Of a DNA stretch of 7,120 nt, positions 1 through 7,120 are shown in pieces. Under the pieces are notes generated by a model. It had not been told where the DNA came from. It searched no databases and saw nothing but the letters and a program-made list of their open reading frames with translations. This DNA comes from an uncultured Clostridia bacterium (GTDB taxonomy: Bacteria; Bacillota_A; Clostridia; Christensenellales; UBA3700): the NCBI GenBank assembly GCA_946545105.1, contig CAMNMY010000043.1:1-7120 (forward strand), read 5' to 3'. A program made the translations under genes and the position numbers. Each line of letters begins with the position of its first letter. The stretch's first letter is position 1.

Positions 1-1425
1 GATTCAGTATTGGAAGCAAAGGCCGAAGAATTAAAGCAAACACTTGCAAACTTCAAAATTAATGTAGAAATCGTGGGAACAATTAAAGGACCTACATTCT
101 CAAGAGTTAACTTTAGATTGGAGCCAGGTACACCAGTTAAGAACTTAACAGCTAAATTTGATGATATTAAGATGGGACTTGCTGTTCCAAGTATGAGACT
201 TTTAGCACCAGTTCCAGGAACAAACTACTGTGGTGTAGAAATTCCAAATAAAGCAAGATCAAAAGTAAACCTAAAAGATATGTGGAAGAGTGCGGATTAT
301 CAAAAGGCTAGAACAAAGGATTCTGGTTTGATATTCGCTTTAGGTAAAGATATTAACGGTAAGACATATACATTTGATTTAACAACAGCTCCTCATATGT
401 TGGTCTGCGGACAAACAAGATCAGGAAAATCTGTAGCACTAAATGTAATGTTGATATCTCTACTATGTAGATATTCTCCAGAAGAGATGAGATTAATCCT
501 ATTTGATCCAAAGCAGGTAGAATTCGCCGTATATGCGGGTATTCCTCACTTGTTGATACCAAATATCCTAACAGAGCCAGCTAAGGCTATAAACGCCATG
601 AATTGGGCTGTACAAGAGATGGAGAGAAGATATGAACTAATCAAATCTGCTGGCGCTAGAAATCTAGAAGAATATAACGCTAAACCAGAAATTAAGCGCG
701 ACCCAACAATGAGAGTTCCATACATTGTAATTATCATTGATGAATTCGCAGAAGTTGTATCTCAAGACCAAGGCATTAAGAAGCAATTTAATATGGTTAT
801 TCAAAGACTTGCTGCAAAAGCAAGAGCTGCAGGTATTCACTTAGTACTTGCTACGCAAAGACCATCTGTTGATGTCGTAACAGGTACAATTAAGGCTAAC
901 TTGCCAACAAGAATGGCGCTAAAGACTTCAGATGCTGTAAACTCTATGACTATTTTGGGATCTGGCGGTGCAGAAGAATTGTTAGGCTATGGTGATATGT
1001 TGTTTGTTAACCCATATGAAGCAGGACAACAACGTATTCAAGGCGCCTTTATATCAACAGAAAATATCGAAGAAATGATTCAATATATCAAAGACCACAA
1101 TGATAAATATTTTGACGAAGAAGCCGAAAAGATGATTATGGCAGATCCTCAAAAAGAACAAGCTCAACAAATGGAGATGGATCTTGGCGATGGAAACAAA
1201 GGTGGCGTAGATCCTCAATTTATTGATGCACTTGAATTATGTATCAAGTACGATAGAGTATCAACATCATTCTTACAAGCTAAATTGTCTGTTGGATTCC
1301 CAAGAGCATCTAAGATTATTAACTGGATGGAAGAGAGTGGTTACATAAAAATTGAAGGTACGAAAAAGACTATCCTTGCTACGCAAGCAGATGTAGATAA
1401 GTTAAGAGGTGAAGGAGAAGAGTAA
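1..1425 (+). CDS. ftsK: DNA translocase FtsK/SpoIIIE family, 5'-truncated by window edge
   Basis: Motor and DNA-reading part of a hexameric, ATP-driven double-stranded DNA pump that moves chromosome ends through the division septum. The frame is open from base 1, so the N-terminal membrane anchor and linker lie outside; the TTG at 10 is internal. Counting residues from base 1 (474 visible), the first ~110 form the alpha/beta entry region, with the family-typical KAEELKQTLANF opening. The Walker A motif GQTRSGKS is at residues 137-144 (bases 409-432) and the Walker B motif YIVIIIDE at 241-248, followed by the conserved LVLATQRPSVDVVTG segment. The C-terminal gamma winged-helix domain, which in known family members recognises polar chromosome motifs (KOPS/SRS), spans about residues 401-465 (bases 1201-1395) after a short acidic linker. 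The stop shares one base with the pgsA start. Whether this is a vegetative FtsK or a sporulation SpoIIIE cannot be told from this part. Confidence 0.95.
   Translation, partial: DSVLEAKAEELKQTLANFKINVEIVGTIKGPTFSRVNFRLEPGTPVKNLTAKFDDIKMGLAVPSMRLLAPVPGTNYCGVEIPNKARSKVNLKDMWKSADYQKARTKDSGLIFALGKDINGKTYTFDLTTAPHMLVCGQTRSGKSVALNVMLISLLCRYSPEEMRLILFDPKQVEFAVYAGIPHLLIPNILTEPAKAINAMNWAVQEMERRYELIKSAGARNLEEYNAKPEIKRDPTMRVPYIVIIIDEFAEVVSQDQGIKKQFNMVIQRLAAKARAAGIHLVLATQRPSVDVVTGTIKANLPTRMALKTSDAVNSMTILGSGGAEELLGYGDMLFVNPYEAGQQRIQGAFISTENIEEMIQYIKDHNDKYFDEEAEKMIMADPQKEQAQQMEMDLGDGNKGGVDPQFIDALELCIKYDRVSTSFLQAKLSVGFPRASKIINWMEESGYIKIEGTKKTILATQADVDKLRGEGEE
1412..1417 (+). promoter_or_regulatory. ribosome binding site of pgsA
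   Basis: AAGGAG lies 7 bases before the pgsA ATG and inside the last codons of ftsK. With the TAATG stop-start overlap it supports ATG 1425 as the true pgsA start and suggests translational coupling of the two genes. Confidence 0.75.
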
Positions 1426-2309
1426 TGAATTTACCTACCAAAATTACGACAATTAGACTAGCTATGATCCCAGTTATAATTGTGTCATTCTGTCTAGAGA
1501 GTGCGCTACCACAATTTAACTGGATATTTATTATTACAGCATCGCTATTCTTTATTGCATCAATGACAGACTTTGTTGATGGATATATTGCAAGAAAATA
1601 CAAAATGGTTACAACACTTGGAAAATTCTTAGATCCAATTGCGGATAAAGTATTAGTAGTAACAGCACTTGCATTTGGAATAGCAGCAACTGATAGAGTT
1701 GGAATCCCATATCTTATGATATGTGTAACAATTGTTATCATAACAAGAGAATTTGCAGTTTCTTTATTTAGACAAATTGCAGCTTCAAAGAATATCATTT
1801 TGCAAGCAGGACAAGCCGGGAAATGGAAAACATTAACAACAATGGCTTCGCTAAATGCTATGTTGTTTATTCCTTTTGAAAATTGGGAAGGTAATCGTGC
1901 TGCATATGTAGCCGGAAAAGTATTCTGGTGGCTATTTATTGTATTTTTAGGTATTGCTGTTGTTTTAACAATCTATTCAGGTATTGATTATGTGTTAAAG
2001 AATAAGCAAGTATTTAAAGACCAAAAGAAGAGCGTAGATATTATCGAAGAAGAAGATGTTGAATTCCCAGATGAGAAGATTATCGATGCATTAGAACTTT
2101 GTAGAAAGCATAATTCGGTAGAAATTTCTATGCTACAAAGAGAATTGGGCATTACATACAAAAGAGCTATTAAAATCAGAGTTTGGCTTGAGATTATGAA
2201 TTTCGTAGAAATTGAGAACAATCAAAGAGTTTTCAAAATCTCTGATGAAGAATTAGCAAAGATTAAAGAAAGAAAAGAAGCATATTATGCAAAATTAGGA
2301 CAAAAATGA
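1425..2309 (+). CDS. pgsA: CDP-diacylglycerol-glycerol-3-phosphate 3-phosphatidyltransferase with C-terminal FtsK-gamma-like winged helix
   Basis: Integral membrane enzyme that joins CDP-diacylglycerol and glycerol-3-phosphate to phosphatidylglycerophosphate, the committed step to phosphatidylglycerol and cardiolipin. The CDP-alcohol phosphotransferase signature is complete: D49, D52, G53, A56, R57, G66, D70, D74. Hydrophobic segments fall near residues 8-23, 32-48, 75-88, 94-111, 135-150 and 164-190. The TREF (108-111) and GKWKT (132-136) stretches are typical of PgsA rather than other members of the superfamily. PgsA is usually about 180-200 residues, but this protein has 294. After a charged, acidic linker (about 196-215, with EEEDVEFPDE) comes a winged-helix domain (about 216-275) that resembles the FtsK gamma domain encoded just upstream, then a basic/acidic helical tail. 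The reading frame is continuous with no sign of a frameshift, and the stop overlaps rimO by 4 bases. In the family both termini are expected in the cytosol, so the extra domain could reach DNA. Enzyme function is confident; the role of the extension is unknown. Confidence 0.95.
   Translation: MNLPTKITTIRLAMIPVIIVSFCLESALPQFNWIFIITASLFFIASMTDFVDGYIARKYKMVTTLGKFLDPIADKVLVVTALAFGIAATDRVGIPYLMICVTIVIITREFAVSLFRQIAASKNIILQAGQAGKWKTLTTMASLNAMLFIPFENWEGNRAAYVAGKVFWWLFIVFLGIAVVLTIYSGIDYVLKNKQVFKDQKKSVDIIEEEDVEFPDEKIIDALELCRKHNSVEISMLQRELGITYKRAIKIRVWLEIMNFVEIENNQRVFKISDEELAKIKERKEAYYAKLGQK
2070..2249 (+). other. FtsK-gamma-like winged-helix domain encoded at the 3' end of pgsA
   Basis: Encodes PgsA residues about 216-275. 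Aligned by hand without gaps to the FtsK gamma domain (bases 1219-1407), I count about 22 identities in 63 positions. They include an IDALELC block (bases 1222-1242 and 2082-2102), the LQ pair, and RA-x-KI-xx-W-x-E in the putative recognition helix. At DNA level the shared leucines use swapped codons (CTT/TTA against TTA/CTT), so the copy is old and has been kept at protein level. Homology is clear from the sequence; DNA binding is inferred. Confidence 0.85.
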
Positions 2310-3631
2310 AAATAGGAACAGTATCGCTAGGTTGCGATAAAAATAGAATAGATACAGAAAACATGCTTGCATTCTTGCAAGATGACGGATATGAATTAAC
2401 ACAAGATCCAGAACAAGCAGATATTATCATTGTAAATACATGCGCATTTATTGAAAGCGCTAAAACTGAATCCATTGATACAATCTTTGAAATGGCACAA
2501 TACAAAAAGACAGGCAAGTGCAAATATTTGGTTGTAACGGGCTGTTTATCTCAAAGATACATGAAGGATTTATACAATGAAATGCCAGAAGTTGATTTGT
2601 TTGTTGGAACAGCTTCATATTCTAAGCTTCCACAATATATCAAAGAAATGGTTGATTCAGGAAAGAGAAACTATTACGAAAATGATATCAACGATAGATA
2701 TTTTTCACCAAAGAGAGTCCTAACAACTCCACAACATTTTGCATATGTAAAGATTGCAGAAGGATGTAACAACAAATGCACATACTGTGCAATTCCAGCA
2801 ATTAGAGGTAAATATACATCAAGATCAATTGAGGATATTGTAGACGAAGTAAAGGAATTAGAGTCTAAATATGGAGTACAAGAAATTGTACTCGTGGCTC
2901 AAGATGTCTCAATATTCGGACAAGACAATTACGGCAGTAAAAAAATCGTTGACTTATTAAAAGAATTATGTAAAACTAATATTGCGTGGATAAGATTGTT
3001 GTATCTATATCCTGAAAACATAACAGATGAACTTTTAGATTTTATGGCTAAAGAAGATAAGATTTGCAAGTATTTAGATATACCATTGCAACATGTATCA
3101 AATAAGATCTTAAAGTTGATGAATAGGCACCTTCAAAAATCCGATATCGAAAAGCTATTTGAAAGAATTGAGAAATATAACTGTTTCACAATTCGCTCGA
3201 CATTTATTGTAGGGTTCCCAAGAGAAGATAAAGAGGACTTCGAAGAATTAGAAGAATTTATCAAGAGCGGAAGAATTGATAGATGCGGATTCTTTGCTTA
3301 TTCACAAGAAGAAGGTACTGCGGCAGCTAGATTAAGCGGACAAATAGAGGAAAGTGTTAAGCTTTCAAGACAAGCTAAGTTATATAAGCTTCAACAGAAA
3401 GTAATGACATCGCGAATGGCAAGGAACATAGGGAGAGAACTTGAAGTAATTTACGAAGGTATAGATTACGACAAGCAAGTGTTCGTAGGCCGTAGCAAGT
3501 CTGATGCCCCTGAAATAGATACGAAAGTGTATTTTACTTCAGATATCCCAGTAGATATCGGATCAATATATAAGGTTAAAATCGAAAAACTAGATGGCCT
3601 AGATTATGTAGGAAAGGTGGTGGAAGAATGA
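2306..3631 (+). CDS. rimO: ribosomal protein S12 methylthiotransferase RimO
   Basis: Cytosolic radical-SAM enzyme that adds a methylthio group to a conserved aspartate of ribosomal protein S12. Three domains are visible. The N-terminal methylthiotransferase domain has cluster ligands C10, C46 and C80, the radical-SAM core carries the CxxxCxxC motif at C154, C158 and C161, and a C-terminal TRAM domain spans about residues 375-441. RimO is preferred over the tRNA enzyme MiaB because of the SLGCDKNRIDTE opening and the DAPEID segment in the TRAM domain, both RimO hallmarks. The length of 441 residues is normal. The ATG overlaps the pgsA stop by 4 bases (ATGA), with only a weak AGGA at 2297-2300, so translation probably relies on coupling. 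The stop in turn overlaps cinA by 4 bases. Confidence 0.96.
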   Translation: MKIGTVSLGCDKNRIDTENMLAFLQDDGYELTQDPEQADIIIVNTCAFIESAKTESIDTIFEMAQYKKTGKCKYLVVTGCLSQRYMKDLYNEMPEVDLFVGTASYSKLPQYIKEMVDSGKRNYYENDINDRYFSPKRVLTTPQHFAYVKIAEGCNNKCTYCAIPAIRGKYTSRSIEDIVDEVKELESKYGVQEIVLVAQDVSIFGQDNYGSKKIVDLLKELCKTNIAWIRLLYLYPENITDELLDFMAKEDKICKYLDIPLQHVSNKILKLMNRHLQKSDIEKLFERIEKYNCFTIRSTFIVGFPREDKEDFEELEEFIKSGRIDRCGFFAYSQEEGTAAARLSGQIEESVKLSRQAKLYKLQQKVMTSRMARNIGRELEVIYEGIDYDKQVFVGRSKSDAPEIDTKVYFTSDIPVDIGSIYKVKIEKLDGLDYVGKVVEE

Positions 3632-4332
3632 TAGAAGAGTATAAAGACTATTGTGTATTAAAAGCATTCGACTTATCTCATAAGCAAATTGAAGAGATTA
3701 ACAATTTGTCTCAAAAGGGTGTTTTTATTCAAGTATCACAAGATTATTTAGACGATACTATTGTTATAATCAATCAATCAGAATCTGAAGTAGTGTTCCA
3801 AGAGATCTTAAATAAGATTGAGGTAATTGCTAAAGATGCTATATATGCTGATTGTGATACATCACTTGAGGAATGTGTAGTTCGTTTAGCTACAACAAAG
3901 AACCTAAAGGTTGCAGTTGCTGAATCTTTAACTGGCGGATTGGTTTGTGCATCAATTGTTAATGTATCTGGTGCAAGCAATGTTTTATATGAAGGATTTG
4001 TAACTTATGCATCACAAGCAAAAGTTAGAAGACTACATGTAAAGAGCACAACTATTGATACATATGGTGCTGTTTCTAAAGAAACATGCGAAGAGATGGT
4101 ACAAGGACTTTTAGCAAACAAGGAGATTCAAATTGCAGTTTCAACAACAGGATGCGCTGGTCCTAATTCAGATGAATTCGGAACTGAGGTTGGTCTAGTA
4201 TATGTGGGTGTAGGTTCACAAAAGGGCATTGAGGTTAAAGAATGTCACCTTGATGGAAATAGAGAAACTATTCGTAAAATGGCAGCGAATACGGCTCTAT
4301 TTATGTTATTAAACTTAGTAAAAAATTATTGA
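3628..4332 (+). CDS. cinA: CinA/PncC-type nicotinamide-nucleotide amidase lacking the N-terminal CinA domain
   Basis: Probable cytosolic amidase that converts nicotinamide mononucleotide to nicotinate mononucleotide for NAD recycling. The C-terminal CinA domain covers about residues 78-234. It has AESLTGG with the presumed catalytic Ser100 (usual form AESCTGG, so Cys is replaced by Leu101), VTYASQAKVRRLHV, GAVSKE, and TTGCAGPNSDEFGTEVGLVYVG. Full-length CinA has over 400 residues with a MoaB-like N-terminal domain. That domain is absent here: the gene starts inside the end of rimO, with AAGGTGG (3614-3620) 7 bases before the ATG. Residues about 28-77 resemble the small KH-like middle domain that precedes the amidase domain in full CinA, so this is intermediate between full CinA and the free-standing PncC of about 165 residues. 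Its position directly before recA is classical for cinA. The amidase assignment is confident, the KH assignment moderate. Confidence 0.9.
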   Translation: MIEEYKDYCVLKAFDLSHKQIEEINNLSQKGVFIQVSQDYLDDTIVIINQSESEVVFQEILNKIEVIAKDAIYADCDTSLEECVVRLATTKNLKVAVAESLTGGLVCASIVNVSGASNVLYEGFVTYASQAKVRRLHVKSTTIDTYGAVSKETCEEMVQGLLANKEIQIAVSTTGCAGPNSDEFGTEVGLVYVGVGSQKGIEVKECHLDGNRETIRKMAANTALFMLLNLVKNY

Positions 4333-4347: not shown

Positions 4348-5370
4348 ATGGCTGGTAAGAAAGTAGAAGAATTAAACCAAGAAAAAACAGCTCTAATCGA
4401 TGAGGCAATCTCAAAGATTGAAAAGAGTTACGGTAAAGGCTCAATTATGAGATTGGGCGAGAAAAAGATTGAGAGTGTTGATGTTATTCCAACACAATGT
4501 TTAGCACTAGATGTTGCTTTAGGTGTTGGCGGATTCCCAAAGGGAAGAATCATCGAAATATATGGACCAGAATCTTCTGGTAAAACAACACTTGCATTAC
4601 ATGCAATTGCTTCTTGCCAACAACAAGGTGGAACGGCAGTATTTATCGATGCTGAACACGCTTTGGATGCTGTATATGCTAAAAAGCTTGGCGTAGATAT
4701 TGATAACTTATATGTAATTCAACCAGATTCAGGTGAACAAGCTTTAGATAACTTGGATACATTGGTAAGATCAAATTCTGTAGATATTATCGTTGTTGAC
4801 TCAGTTGCTGCTTTAACTCCAAAAGCTGAAATTGAAGGTGAAGTAGGACAATCAGTTATCGGTCTTCAAGCAAGAATGATGAGCCAAGGTCTAAGAAGAG
4901 TTACAAGCGTTATTGCTAAAGCAAACACATGCGTTATCTTCATTAACCAATTAAGAGAGAAGGTAGGCGTTATGTTTGGTAACCCAGAAACAACTCCAGG
5001 TGGTAAGGCTTTGAAGTTCTATGCAAGTATTAGAATTGATGTAAGAAAGGGCGATGCTATCAAAGATGGAGCTGAATTCATCGGAAATAGAACAAAGGCT
5101 AAGATTGTTAAGAATAAGGTAGCTCCTCCATTTAAAGTAGCTGAATTTGATATGTTATATGGCAAGGGTATTTCTCAAGAAGGTTGTATCGTAGATATGG
5201 CTATTCAAGAAGGAATCATGGCAAAGAGCGGTTCTTGGATTAGCTATATGGATGAAAAGATTGCTCAAGGTAGAGACAAGGCGATCCAATATCTTCAAGA
5301 TAATCCAGAAGTTGCAGAAGAGATTAAGGCGAAAGTAATTCAAAAAATACAAGAAGAATCTGTTGATTAA
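4348..5370 (+). CDS. recA: recombinase RecA
   Basis: Cytosolic ATP-dependent recombinase that forms filaments on single-stranded DNA, exchanges strands and promotes LexA self-cleavage in the SOS response. The Walker A motif is GPESSGKT at residues 73-80, the catalytic glutamate is E103 in DAEHAL, and the Walker B segment is [11 protein letters not shown] (146-156). The DNA-binding loop L2 with [19 protein letters not shown] is at about 206-224, and the [16 protein letters not shown] segment at 248-263. An N-terminal polymerisation helix (about 10-35) and the C-terminal domain are present. At 340 residues it is complete, though the tail (EESVD) is short and far less acidic than the C-terminus of the E. 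coli protein, which damps DNA binding there. It is the last gene of the ftsK-pgsA-rimO-cinA-recA unit and is followed 7 bases later by a terminator hairpin. No SOS-type operator is visible in its upstream gap. Confidence 0.98.
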
Positions 5371-5440: not shown

Positions 5441-6094
5441 ATGTTAACTAGATTGATAAAAAATAACTTTGGATTGTTTGAATATGTATTAATGGGTCTA
5501 TTGGGATTCATCATTTTATTCACAGGAATTACGACTTTTGGATCTTTTAATGACTTTCCTGCGGGAAATTTTGGAAGAATTCTTTGGTTTATTATCTATG
5601 TTGGGCTTATTGGCATTTTATTGTACTGTATAGCATCAAATAAAAAAGAGTATATTAAATTCTTAGCAAAAGCTTATTTAGCATACTATGCTATATCTAC
5701 TATGCTTAGCATATCTAATCCGTTTTTTGCGTTTTACGATAGAAACAATGCACTAAGAGTAGCAGAAGCAGTATTTGTAATGCTTGCGATATTTGTGTTT
5801 ATTGCGCTTGTGATTCTTGGAATTATTATAAAGATAAAAGGGGTAAACTTACAGTTTGTGTTTGATGTGCTTGCGCTTTGCTATTTAGCTTTAGAATTTA
5901 TTATTTGGATATTAGCACTATGTGTAGATGCTAAGGCAAAAACGGGCTGGACAACAGCAATGGGTGAATTCACATCTCATCTCTTAATACCATGGAGTGT
6001 AGGTGTTGGGTATTATTTATATCAAATAAAGTATGTTAATACTCCACAAGATGAAGAATACGTAGCTTTTGATGATATTGAAGATAGAAAATAA
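5441..6094 (+). CDS. multi-spanning membrane protein of unknown function
   Basis: I do not recognise a family. The 217 residues hold about six hydrophobic segments, near 13-33, 47-66, 75-98, 108-131, 137-162 and 180-196. They are joined by short loops, with lysine-rich patches at 68-76 and 131-133 that suggest cytosolic sides. There is no cleavable signal peptide: the N-terminus MLTRLIKNN is basic and short, as for an uncleaved first helix. The C-terminus (about 199-217) is hydrophilic and strongly acidic (QDEEYVAFDDIEDRK) and is likely cytosolic. No ATPase, protease or transporter motif is apparent. The start is supported by TGAGGT 6 bases upstream and a promoter just before it. It is separated by only 2 bases from the phosphopantetheinyl transferase gene, so the two are co-transcribed and perhaps functionally linked. 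It is a real gene by ORF length, signals and codon use like its neighbours. Confidence 0.85.
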   Translation: MLTRLIKNNFGLFEYVLMGLLGFIILFTGITTFGSFNDFPAGNFGRILWFIIYVGLIGILLYCIASNKKEYIKFLAKAYLAYYAISTMLSISNPFFAFYDRNNALRVAEAVFVMLAIFVFIALVILGIIIKIKGVNLQFVFDVLALCYLALEFIIWILALCVDAKAKTGWTTAMGEFTSHLLIPWSVGVGYYLYQIKYVNTPQDEEYVAFDDIEDRK

Positions 6095-6096
6095 GA

Positions 6097-6657
6097 ATGC
6101 AAAGATTAATTATTCTAAACAAAAACAATATATCTAAATTTGATTTGGCTCAAAAAATGGGGTCAAATGAGCAAATCTTTGAAAAAGATAAGGATTTATA
6201 TATTGCAACAAGAATAATTGAAAATATCATATTAAACGGCCGTGAAAAGCATATTGGCGTAGAAGGAAAGCCTTATATGAATGGCCAAGACAAATATAAT
6301 TTGTCAAATTATGGTGATTTTGCGTGTGGATATATCTCAACGGATGGAGAGGTTGGTGTAGATATTTTAAAGATACATCATTTTGATGATCACTTTATTG
6401 AAAGAATATATTCAAACGAAGAAAGAGAAAAAATAACAAGCGATATAGATGCTACAAAAGCATGGACTATAAAAGAAGCTTGTATAAAGTGTGTAGGAAT
6501 AGGGTTAAAAGGATTACATAACGTAGAAATAAAAAATGATTTTTGCTGTAAGTATTTGGATAGAGAATTTAACTATAAATCATTCGAATATAAAGGATAC
6601 ATGATTAGTGTCGTTTCTGGTGCGAAAATCGATATTGATAGCGTAGAAGAGATTTAG
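6097..6657 (+). CDS. divergent Sfp-type 4'-phosphopantetheinyl transferase
   Basis: Probable cytosolic enzyme that moves the phosphopantetheine arm of coenzyme A onto a serine of an acyl or peptidyl carrier protein. Family blocks appear in order: GKPYMNGQDKYNLSNYG (57-73, the usual GKP...NxSHSG block), GEVGVDI (84-90) with the metal-binding aspartate D89, the short spacer with YSNEERE (105-111), and WTIKEACIKCVGIGLKG (123-139) with the expected catalytic E127 and K131. Two departures stand out. The second acid of the Sfp GxDxE motif is a leucine (L91), and the histidine of the SHSG block is an asparagine (N71). The missing acid need not abolish activity, since the human enzyme also has a non-acidic residue there. 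The length of 186 residues is short against Sfp (about 224) but much longer than AcpS (about 120). No clear ribosome binding site precedes the ATG, which is 2 bases after the stop of the membrane protein gene, so coupled re-initiation is likely. No carrier protein or synthase gene is in the window. Confidence 0.8.
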   Translation: MQRLIILNKNNISKFDLAQKMGSNEQIFEKDKDLYIATRIIENIILNGREKHIGVEGKPYMNGQDKYNLSNYGDFACGYISTDGEVGVDILKIHHFDDHFIERIYSNEEREKITSDIDATKAWTIKEACIKCVGIGLKGLHNVEIKNDFCCKYLDREFNYKSFEYKGYMISVVSGAKIDIDSVEEI

Positions 6658-6811: not shown

Positions 6812-7120
6812 ATGACAAGTAACGAAATTAGTTGCTTTAGTTTTCTTCTTGGAGCAGACGCAACTGGAATTATATTGGCTGCGATATTAGCACTAGTATT
6901 AGGTGCTTTAGCATCGTGGCTTGTGTATAGATTTTATGTACGTAAAAATGTTGGCAGCGTAAAGCAAGAGTGCGACAAATTGCGCGAATCAGCTCAAGCT
7001 GAGTCAAGAGAGTTCCTAAAGGAAGCAAAACAAGAAGCAAGAGAAGAAAGCCAAAGACTTCGCTCTGAAGTAGACAAAGAAATTAGAGAAAAAAGAGCTG
7101 AAGTTGCACGTAATAAACAC
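6812..7120 (+). CDS. rny: ribonuclease Y, N-terminal part (3'-truncated by window edge)
   Basis: Membrane-anchored endoribonuclease that starts mRNA decay in Bacillota. Only the first 103 codons are present and the frame is open to the last base, so the KH and HD catalytic domains lie beyond the window. The translation begins MTSNEISCFSFLLGADATG, has one transmembrane helix at about residues 18-39, a basic YRFYVRKN stop-transfer stretch, and then a long charged coiled coil rich in Glu, Lys, Arg and Ala (about 50-103), ending in KEIREKRAEVARN. This order and the REIRE(K/R)R-type coiled-coil pattern match RNase Y. About 17 residues precede the membrane helix, more than in the B. subtilis protein, but the perfect ribosome binding site and the lack of a later Met support this start. 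Location downstream of recA is usual for rny in Bacillota. Confidence 0.88.
   Translation, partial: MTSNEISCFSFLLGADATGIILAAILALVLGALASWLVYRFYVRKNVGSVKQECDKLRESAQAESREFLKEAKQEAREESQRLRSEVDKEIREKRAEVARNKH

Follow-up and report, generated by a model that had tools for sequence, protein, structure and literature searches.

PgsA (TIGR00560, PF01066; structure 7DRJ) is the phospholipid synthase to which the locus described here is most readily compared, and its ordinary members end soon after the last membrane helix. According to passages in two sources, PgsA-GFP is found at the Bacillus subtilis septum, which PgsA is said to reach by a route differing from that of ClsA (PMC4464175; PMC5073135), and the relevant passage of one of them, a review, calls its way to the septum unresolved (PMC4464175). 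In Bacillus another membrane protein with a helix-turn-helix, RodZ, is genetically linked to pgsA; as described in parts of PMC5073135, it is encoded before pgsA and has one membrane helix and a cytosolic helix-turn-helix for MreB contact. RodZ is, however, a separate protein, and its domain belongs to a family other than FtsK gamma. For the gamma domain of FtsK/SpoIIIE (PF09397; 2J5O, 2J5P, 2VE8, and 2VE9), passages of PMC2680272 indicate that in Escherichia coli R1300, E1303, and E1306 are needed for recognition of the KOPS motif. Sections of PMC5052618 report that XerD and KOPS use the same gamma surface, with R1289 as the key contact with XerD, and that gamma is functional when grafted onto XerC or XerD, while a passage of PMC4744071 has gamma regulating the SpoIIIE motor.

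In the window, which is the whole stretch of 7,120 nucleotides analyzed, PgsA carries at its C terminus a domain homologous to FtsK gamma, joined through a short conserved acidic linker. The catalytic part, signature motif, fold, and ftsK/cinA/recA neighborhood are those of other PgsAs, to which the window PgsA adds the linker, the winged helix, and one more helix. With FtsK gamma itself the extension shares sequence family and fold. It differs in its host protein, a lipid enzyme, in an additional helix at its C terminus, and in lacking an acidic residue at KOPS position 1303. The XerC-gamma and XerD-gamma laboratory fusions likewise place gamma on another protein (sections of PMC5052618); these are man-made and involve a recombinase, whereas PgsA-gamma is natural and involves a membrane enzyme. 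The earlier note on this DNA, prepared from the letters alone, knew of no report of this architecture, and none was found among the open-licence papers searched. The features of the window are as follows.

1..1425, + strand: 3' part of ftsK, comprising alpha part, FtsK_SpoIIIE motor, and gamma (PF17854 59.8, PF01580 189, and PF09397 45.7 bits)
1210..1353, + strand: FtsK gamma domain, the relative of the PgsA extension (PF09397 at residues 404 to 451 of the partial FtsK)
1423..1427, + strand: TAATG, one-base overlap of the ftsK stop TAA and the pgsA start ATG (read from the sequence)
1425..2309, + strand: pgsA-gamma fusion gene, 294 aa (open reading frame; TIGR00560 144.6 bits)
1425..2018, + strand: CDP-alcohol phosphotransferase (PgsA) membrane catalytic part, residues 1 to 198 (PF01066 at residues 1 to 170, 113.2 bits; fold match 7drj)
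2019..2066, + strand: acidic linker, residues 199 to 214, ending in a conserved EEEDVEF (invariant at 8 of its 16 positions across 22 clade rows)
about 2067..2243, + strand: FtsK-gamma-type winged helix, residues 215 to 273 (PF09397; Foldseek 2ve8, 2ve9, 2j5p, and 2j5o)
2157..2195, + strand: third helix, at the recognition-helix position, residues 245 to 257 (a helix in both models)
about 2244..2303, + strand: extra C-terminal helix, residues 274 to 293 (full-length model; residues 70 to 89 of the domain model)
2306..3631, + strand: rimO-type radical SAM methylthiotransferase gene (PF00919, PF04055, and PF18693)
3628..4332, + strand: cinA C-terminal-domain protein (PF02464 155.8 bits)
4348..5370, + strand: recA or recA-like gene (open reading frame; the name is our reading rather than the result of a family scan)
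5441..6094, + strand: membrane-like ORF, 217 aa, between recA and the phosphopantetheinyl transferase gene
6097..6657: phosphopantetheinyl transferase-like gene
6812..7120: start of another gene

The 5' end of ftsK lies beyond the window, and its frame is open at that end. As ftsK and pgsA overlap in TAATG, which makes translational coupling of this pair possible, and the pgsA stop overlaps the rimO ATG (ATGA at 2306 to 2309), the genes probably form one transcription unit with coupled translation. The window recA, used as a query, was found in the same neighborhood in relatives. The CinA protein is short (234 aa), with PF02464 spanning residues 78 to 230 and no further CinA domain in the Pfam scan, and a Pfam scan of the 217-aa ORF at 5441 to 6094 up to an E value of 1 gave no family.

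The earlier note had described an uninterrupted 294-residue PgsA ending in an FtsK-gamma-like winged helix, and had proposed a profile search, a structure prediction, and a survey of homologs and of their linkage to ftsK. The frame at 1425 to 2309 (+ strand) is indeed open over all 294 codons with zero internal stops, and its TIGR00560 score lies above the curated equivalog cutoff of 109.1 bits. The CDP-alcohol phosphotransferase signature, D-x2-D-G-x2-A-R-x8-G-x3-D-x3-D, is present at D49 to D74, and D49, D52, G53, A56, R57, G66, D70, and D74 were invariant in a 25-row alignment. The fusion is thus a PgsA with an intact catalytic signature, for which phosphatidylglycerol phosphate synthesis is predicted. 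Judged by the topology of the family, the C terminus on which gamma is always found would face the cytosol.

Of the three outcomes that the earlier note listed as refuting its reading, none was seen. Region 2013 to 2306 alone matched PF09397 FtsK_gamma with 31.4 bits (E = 1.5e-7; cutoff, 30.6), the same match within the whole PgsA scoring 28.9 bits (E = 9.6e-7), slightly below the cutoff. Against the gamma domain of the window FtsK, whose own PDB matches were 2j5o, 2ve8, and 2j5p, BLASTP aligned 24 of 70 residues as identical without gaps (E = 2e-15 in a single comparison), close to the hand count of about 22 of 63 given earlier. When 22 clade rows were compared with FtsK gammas profile to profile, the probability was 98.5% (E = 1.6e-15), while 20 column-permuted versions scored 0.1 to 5.8%. 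The extension is predicted to fold as helix-helix-helix-strand-strand plus one further helix that is absent from FtsK gamma itself; in a domain model made from PgsA extensions only (pLDDT 90.8), the 13 best Foldseek matches were all FtsK gamma chains. The full-length model has low confidence around residues 201 to 212, in the linker. A phmmer search of the region against PDB sequences returned only chance-level rows (E = 0.26 or worse).

To establish how widely the architecture occurs, the extension was used as a query and identified 30 database proteins, all with PF01066. One of these, P0021, has a foreign-looking N terminus and is probably a chimeric assembly; it was left out of the profile-profile comparison and of the 22-row conservation count. 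In a search of genome contigs the extension was found at 2 of 22 PgsA loci (L001, from Clostridiales bacterium SIG377, and L002, from an uncultured Clostridia), both with ftsK directly before pgsA. PgsA alignment surveys then covered 200 genomes of the order and 46, 147, and 43 genomes of three families, as well as 391 genomes of the class, 189 of which had matches at an E value of 1e-40 or better; a phylum survey of 398 genomes at a strict threshold of 1e-55 gave one match, G001. PgsA-gamma joins were identified in 14 surveyed genomes: 4 of 46 in the first family (G001, G002, G061, and G604), 6 of 147 in the second (G112, G030, G075, G127, G054, and G689), where 140 genomes had a match, 49 of them judged from their ORFs and the others from the match table, and 4 of 43 in the third (G004, G762, G745, and G747). 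The seven genomes of the class sample with a full-length match in one open frame were all already in the order survey, and none of 51 further or refetched loci from 50 genomes held an additional PgsA-gamma. An assembly join or frameshift artifact is ruled out by the open frame, the 30 proteins, and the same architecture in the four carriers of the first family.

The joins take several forms, a recurrence in other lineages and in different designs that the earlier note had missed. In the fusion encoded in the window, gamma stands behind PgsA and not behind an FtsK motor. PgsA-gamma proteins of 280 to 315 aa occur in the window clade, a second group of carriers, G689, and G004, and in G762 PgsA is followed by an acidic linker of about 400 aa and gamma in a 746-aa frame. 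In G745 (763 aa) and G747 (847 aa), a degenerate FtsK-like motor lies between PgsA and gamma in one frame, the G745 fusion scoring 102.9 (PF01066), 93 (PF01580), and 35.1 (PF09397) bits. Both motors keep Walker A, but the DE found in the window FtsK is replaced in them by DG or DN, with loss of the catalytic Glu, and they probably bind ATP without hydrolyzing it. The end of an ordinary ftsK is also present in G747, upstream of rimO. In a further design, a separate double-gamma gene stands just after pgsA in 10 genomes (G130, G763, G765, G080, G191, G764, G180, G156, G766, and G762), followed by cinA in the six with longer loci (G762, G191, G180, G764, G156, and G080). Many other PgsAs of the order have long disordered tails without gamma. 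A PF09397 scan of the carriers other than G747 placed the window region, G127, G689, and G745 above the cutoff and G061 (28.8 bits), G075 (23.9), G762 (22.4), G054 (19.8), G112 (19.1), G004 (18.0), G030 (13.7), and G002 (12.0) below it, with no row for the PgsAs of G001 and G604; detection by our own gamma model is partly circular, as the model was trained on such domains.

Gamma-like domains were also observed on other proteins. The double-gamma proteins (L163 to L171, L176, and L193) are about 186 to 200 aa or longer, with a basic first domain (+1 to +6) and a mildly acidic second domain bearing E at position 1300. Extra genes lie between ftsK and rimO at L178 (4210 to 5346), L179 (4219 to 5481), L180 (5376 to 6350), and L181 (4959 to 5678), the first encoding a second FtsK-like motor of 379 aa and the other three a gamma-like domain. 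In G004, a 429-aa multi-helix membrane protein (L083, 1444 to 2730, - strand) ends in an FtsK-gamma-like domain that scores 21.1 bits against PF09397, below the cutoff, and is nearest to G004's own FtsK gamma (43.1 bits). Stand-alone gamma-like ORFs of 86 to 87 aa were found in G140 (L072, 1474 to 1734, + strand; PF09397 32.6 bits) and G153 (L071, 1483 to 1740, + strand), each directly 3' of an ORF that by our reading resembles a type III restriction enzyme subunit. Finally, a 496-aa ORF in G104 (L074, 208 to 1695, + strand), just before a hisS-like gene, has an FtsK-like center and a C-terminal gamma nearest to that of its own FtsK.

On trees of the catalytic part, the gamma-bearing state required at least six changes, with 117 rows as well as with the 110 left after removal of seven far rows; G747 was coded without gamma in the former, where its locus was cut short, and as a carrier in the latter. 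AU tests rejected a single clade of all 15 carriers for both the catalytic part (p = 9e-11) and gamma (p = 4.6e-4), with constraint sets chosen after the trees were seen. The catalytic part also rejected joining the window clade to the second group (p = 2.5e-4) and the second group to G689 (p = 2.7e-7). For the gamma tree (77 columns) the corresponding values were 0.053 and 0.119, with 0.045 for the window clade plus G689, so the short gamma alone leaves the separateness of the groups unsettled. A single ancient fusion followed by losses is disfavored by the catalytic-part tree and AU tests, and the trees support six separate origins of the PgsA-gamma joins within the PgsA tree. In the gamma tree, conversion by ftsK sequence could give the look of independent origins; in the catalytic tree it could not.

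The earlier note had suggested a partial duplication of the 3' end of ftsK onto pgsA, and the gamma tree agrees with this. The PgsA gammas of the five window-clade members cluster together (100/98), nested inside their family's FtsK gammas (25 rows, 99/99), that of G689 joins the G689 FtsK gamma (3 rows, 96/81), and that of G762 joins its lineage's FtsK gammas (10 rows, 100/99). As the gammas of three lineages group with their own lineage's FtsK gammas, the ftsK 3' end appears to have been copied more than once. The second group is one gamma clade (100/100) of uncertain placement. In a nearest-FtsK test the four clade FtsKs of the window were the top 4 of 57, and the test supports a resident origin for the window, G061, G689, and G762, offers loose support for the second group and G004, and gives none for G604, whose own FtsK ranked last of 5, nor for G745 and G747. 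The window domain is thus supported as a copy of the resident FtsK's gamma. One simple route may have been a tandem duplication of the stretch from the ftsK 3' end to pgsA, which would place gamma behind pgsA at the junction; the second pgsA copy would then have been lost.

Whether the copied domain could still read DNA was considered from its residues. In our alignment, the five clade PgsAs have K/K/R/K/E at 1300, V/V/V/F/L at 1303, and E in all at 1306, while in their own genomes' FtsKs 1300 is always K and 1303 is N, D, D, D, and D (K, V, and E in the window PgsA against K, N, and E in its FtsK). The acidic residue at 1303 is therefore lost in five of five clade PgsAs. Across 22 clade rows the third helix has 6 of 13 positions invariant, with R252, W254, E256, and I257 in every row, and the mean frequency of the commonest residue is 0.85 in this helix, 0.81 in residues 215 to 294, and 0.85 in the catalytic part. 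As the third helix is conserved but 1303 is changed, the surface seems kept yet altered, for another DNA specificity or a protein partner. Deeper relatives show gamma changing faster than the catalytic part (41 against 63% identity between the window and G061, and 30 against 62% for G604). Where computable, gamma dN/dS was below 1 (0.02 to 0.59 in 7 of 10 window-clade pairs and 0.16 to 0.30 in 7 of 10 second-group pairs) and mostly above that of the catalytic part, values that are rough because every gamma pair has dS above 1 and most are near saturation; this suggests purifying selection on the extension.

These data bear on a reading in which gamma binds chromosomal DNA, with its own motif or none, and PgsA links the nucleoid to sites of anionic-lipid synthesis. 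The fold is nearest to the KOPS-binding gamma, few parts are as well conserved as the third helix, and PgsA, a homodimer in related structures, would present two gamma domains. Against this, position 1303 is hydrophobic throughout the clade, and the net charge of gamma is -5 to 0 in clade PgsAs and -6 to -10 in the second group, compared with -2 to 0 in the FtsK gammas of the same genomes, the strong acidity of the second group arguing against DNA binding there. Since the KOPS-reading residues are altered, reading of KOPS-type motifs by the clade PgsAs is unlikely; the FtsKs of the window clade have themselves diverged from the E. coli residues, and the local motif may differ from KOPS. Overall, we regard a DNA tether as unlikely.

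We tentatively favor, at somewhat short of an even chance, a gamma extension acting as a module that docks PgsA onto FtsK, or onto its DNA, at the septum, because the surface is kept but changed, XerD uses the KOPS surface of gamma, and B. subtilis PgsA is septal. At the closing septum, gamma would bring PgsA into contact with the assembled FtsK pump or with DNA being handled by FtsK, and anionic lipid would thereby be made at the point of chromosome clearance and septum sealing. The one-base overlap and probable co-translation of ftsK and pgsA would favor matched amounts of the two proteins. Candidate contacts are, in descending order, FtsK's own gamma or motor, XerD, and DNA without a KOPS motif. 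Domain identity, fold, conservation, recurrence, copying from the resident FtsK, the motor fusions, and the double-gamma neighbors were counted in favor. Counted against docking were the rarity of the joins in the three families, which means that PgsA normally does without gamma, the faster divergence of gamma in deeper relatives, and the acidity of the second group, unlike a DNA binder. Also counted against it were the adjacency of ftsK and pgsA, so that the recurrent copying might reflect a mutational tendency of the locus, and the gamma copies found there alone or on other proteins.

The last two points lead to a more doubtful alternative than the DNA tether, in which frequent local duplication at ftsK-rimO-pgsA-cinA-recA spreads gamma copies that are tolerated on PgsA or have a minor stabilizing role. 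It would account for the copies elsewhere at the locus, after pgsA and between ftsK and rimO, and elsewhere in genomes, and the gamma-less tails indicate that the PgsA C terminus tolerates additions; however, conservation of the clade extension comes close to that of the catalytic part, half of the linker positions are invariant, and the dN/dS values, rough as they are, stay below 1. A sensor in which gamma signals the state of PgsA or of the lipids to the FtsK motor, or competes for gamma sites on XerD or FtsK, would fit the reported contacts of gamma with XerD and the SpoIIIE motor and the pseudo-motor look of the two PgsA-motor fusions, but is improbable, the XerD contact R1289 being R in the window PgsA yet variable in the clade (R in 12 of 22 rows at residue 239 of our alignment).

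Docking at the septum remains our preferred reading. Of the hints at functional partnership that sequence can give, gene fusions rank among the better ones, and about six times within one order a phospholipid synthase seems to have acquired the domain with which the chromosome pump reads DNA, once as PgsA-motor-gamma. This recurrence hints that lipid synthesis and chromosome segregation are physically linked in a way not recognized before. More speculatively than for docking itself, PgsA and FtsK may be physical partners in septum closure, with gamma on PgsA, the double-gamma proteins, and PgsA-motor-gamma as repeated independent ways of tying the local synthesis of anionic lipid to that pump; other Firmicutes may have the same coupling with the two proteins unfused. 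Whether septal lipid supply is coupled to chromosome translocation can be approached directly, and in testable form, through the fusion.
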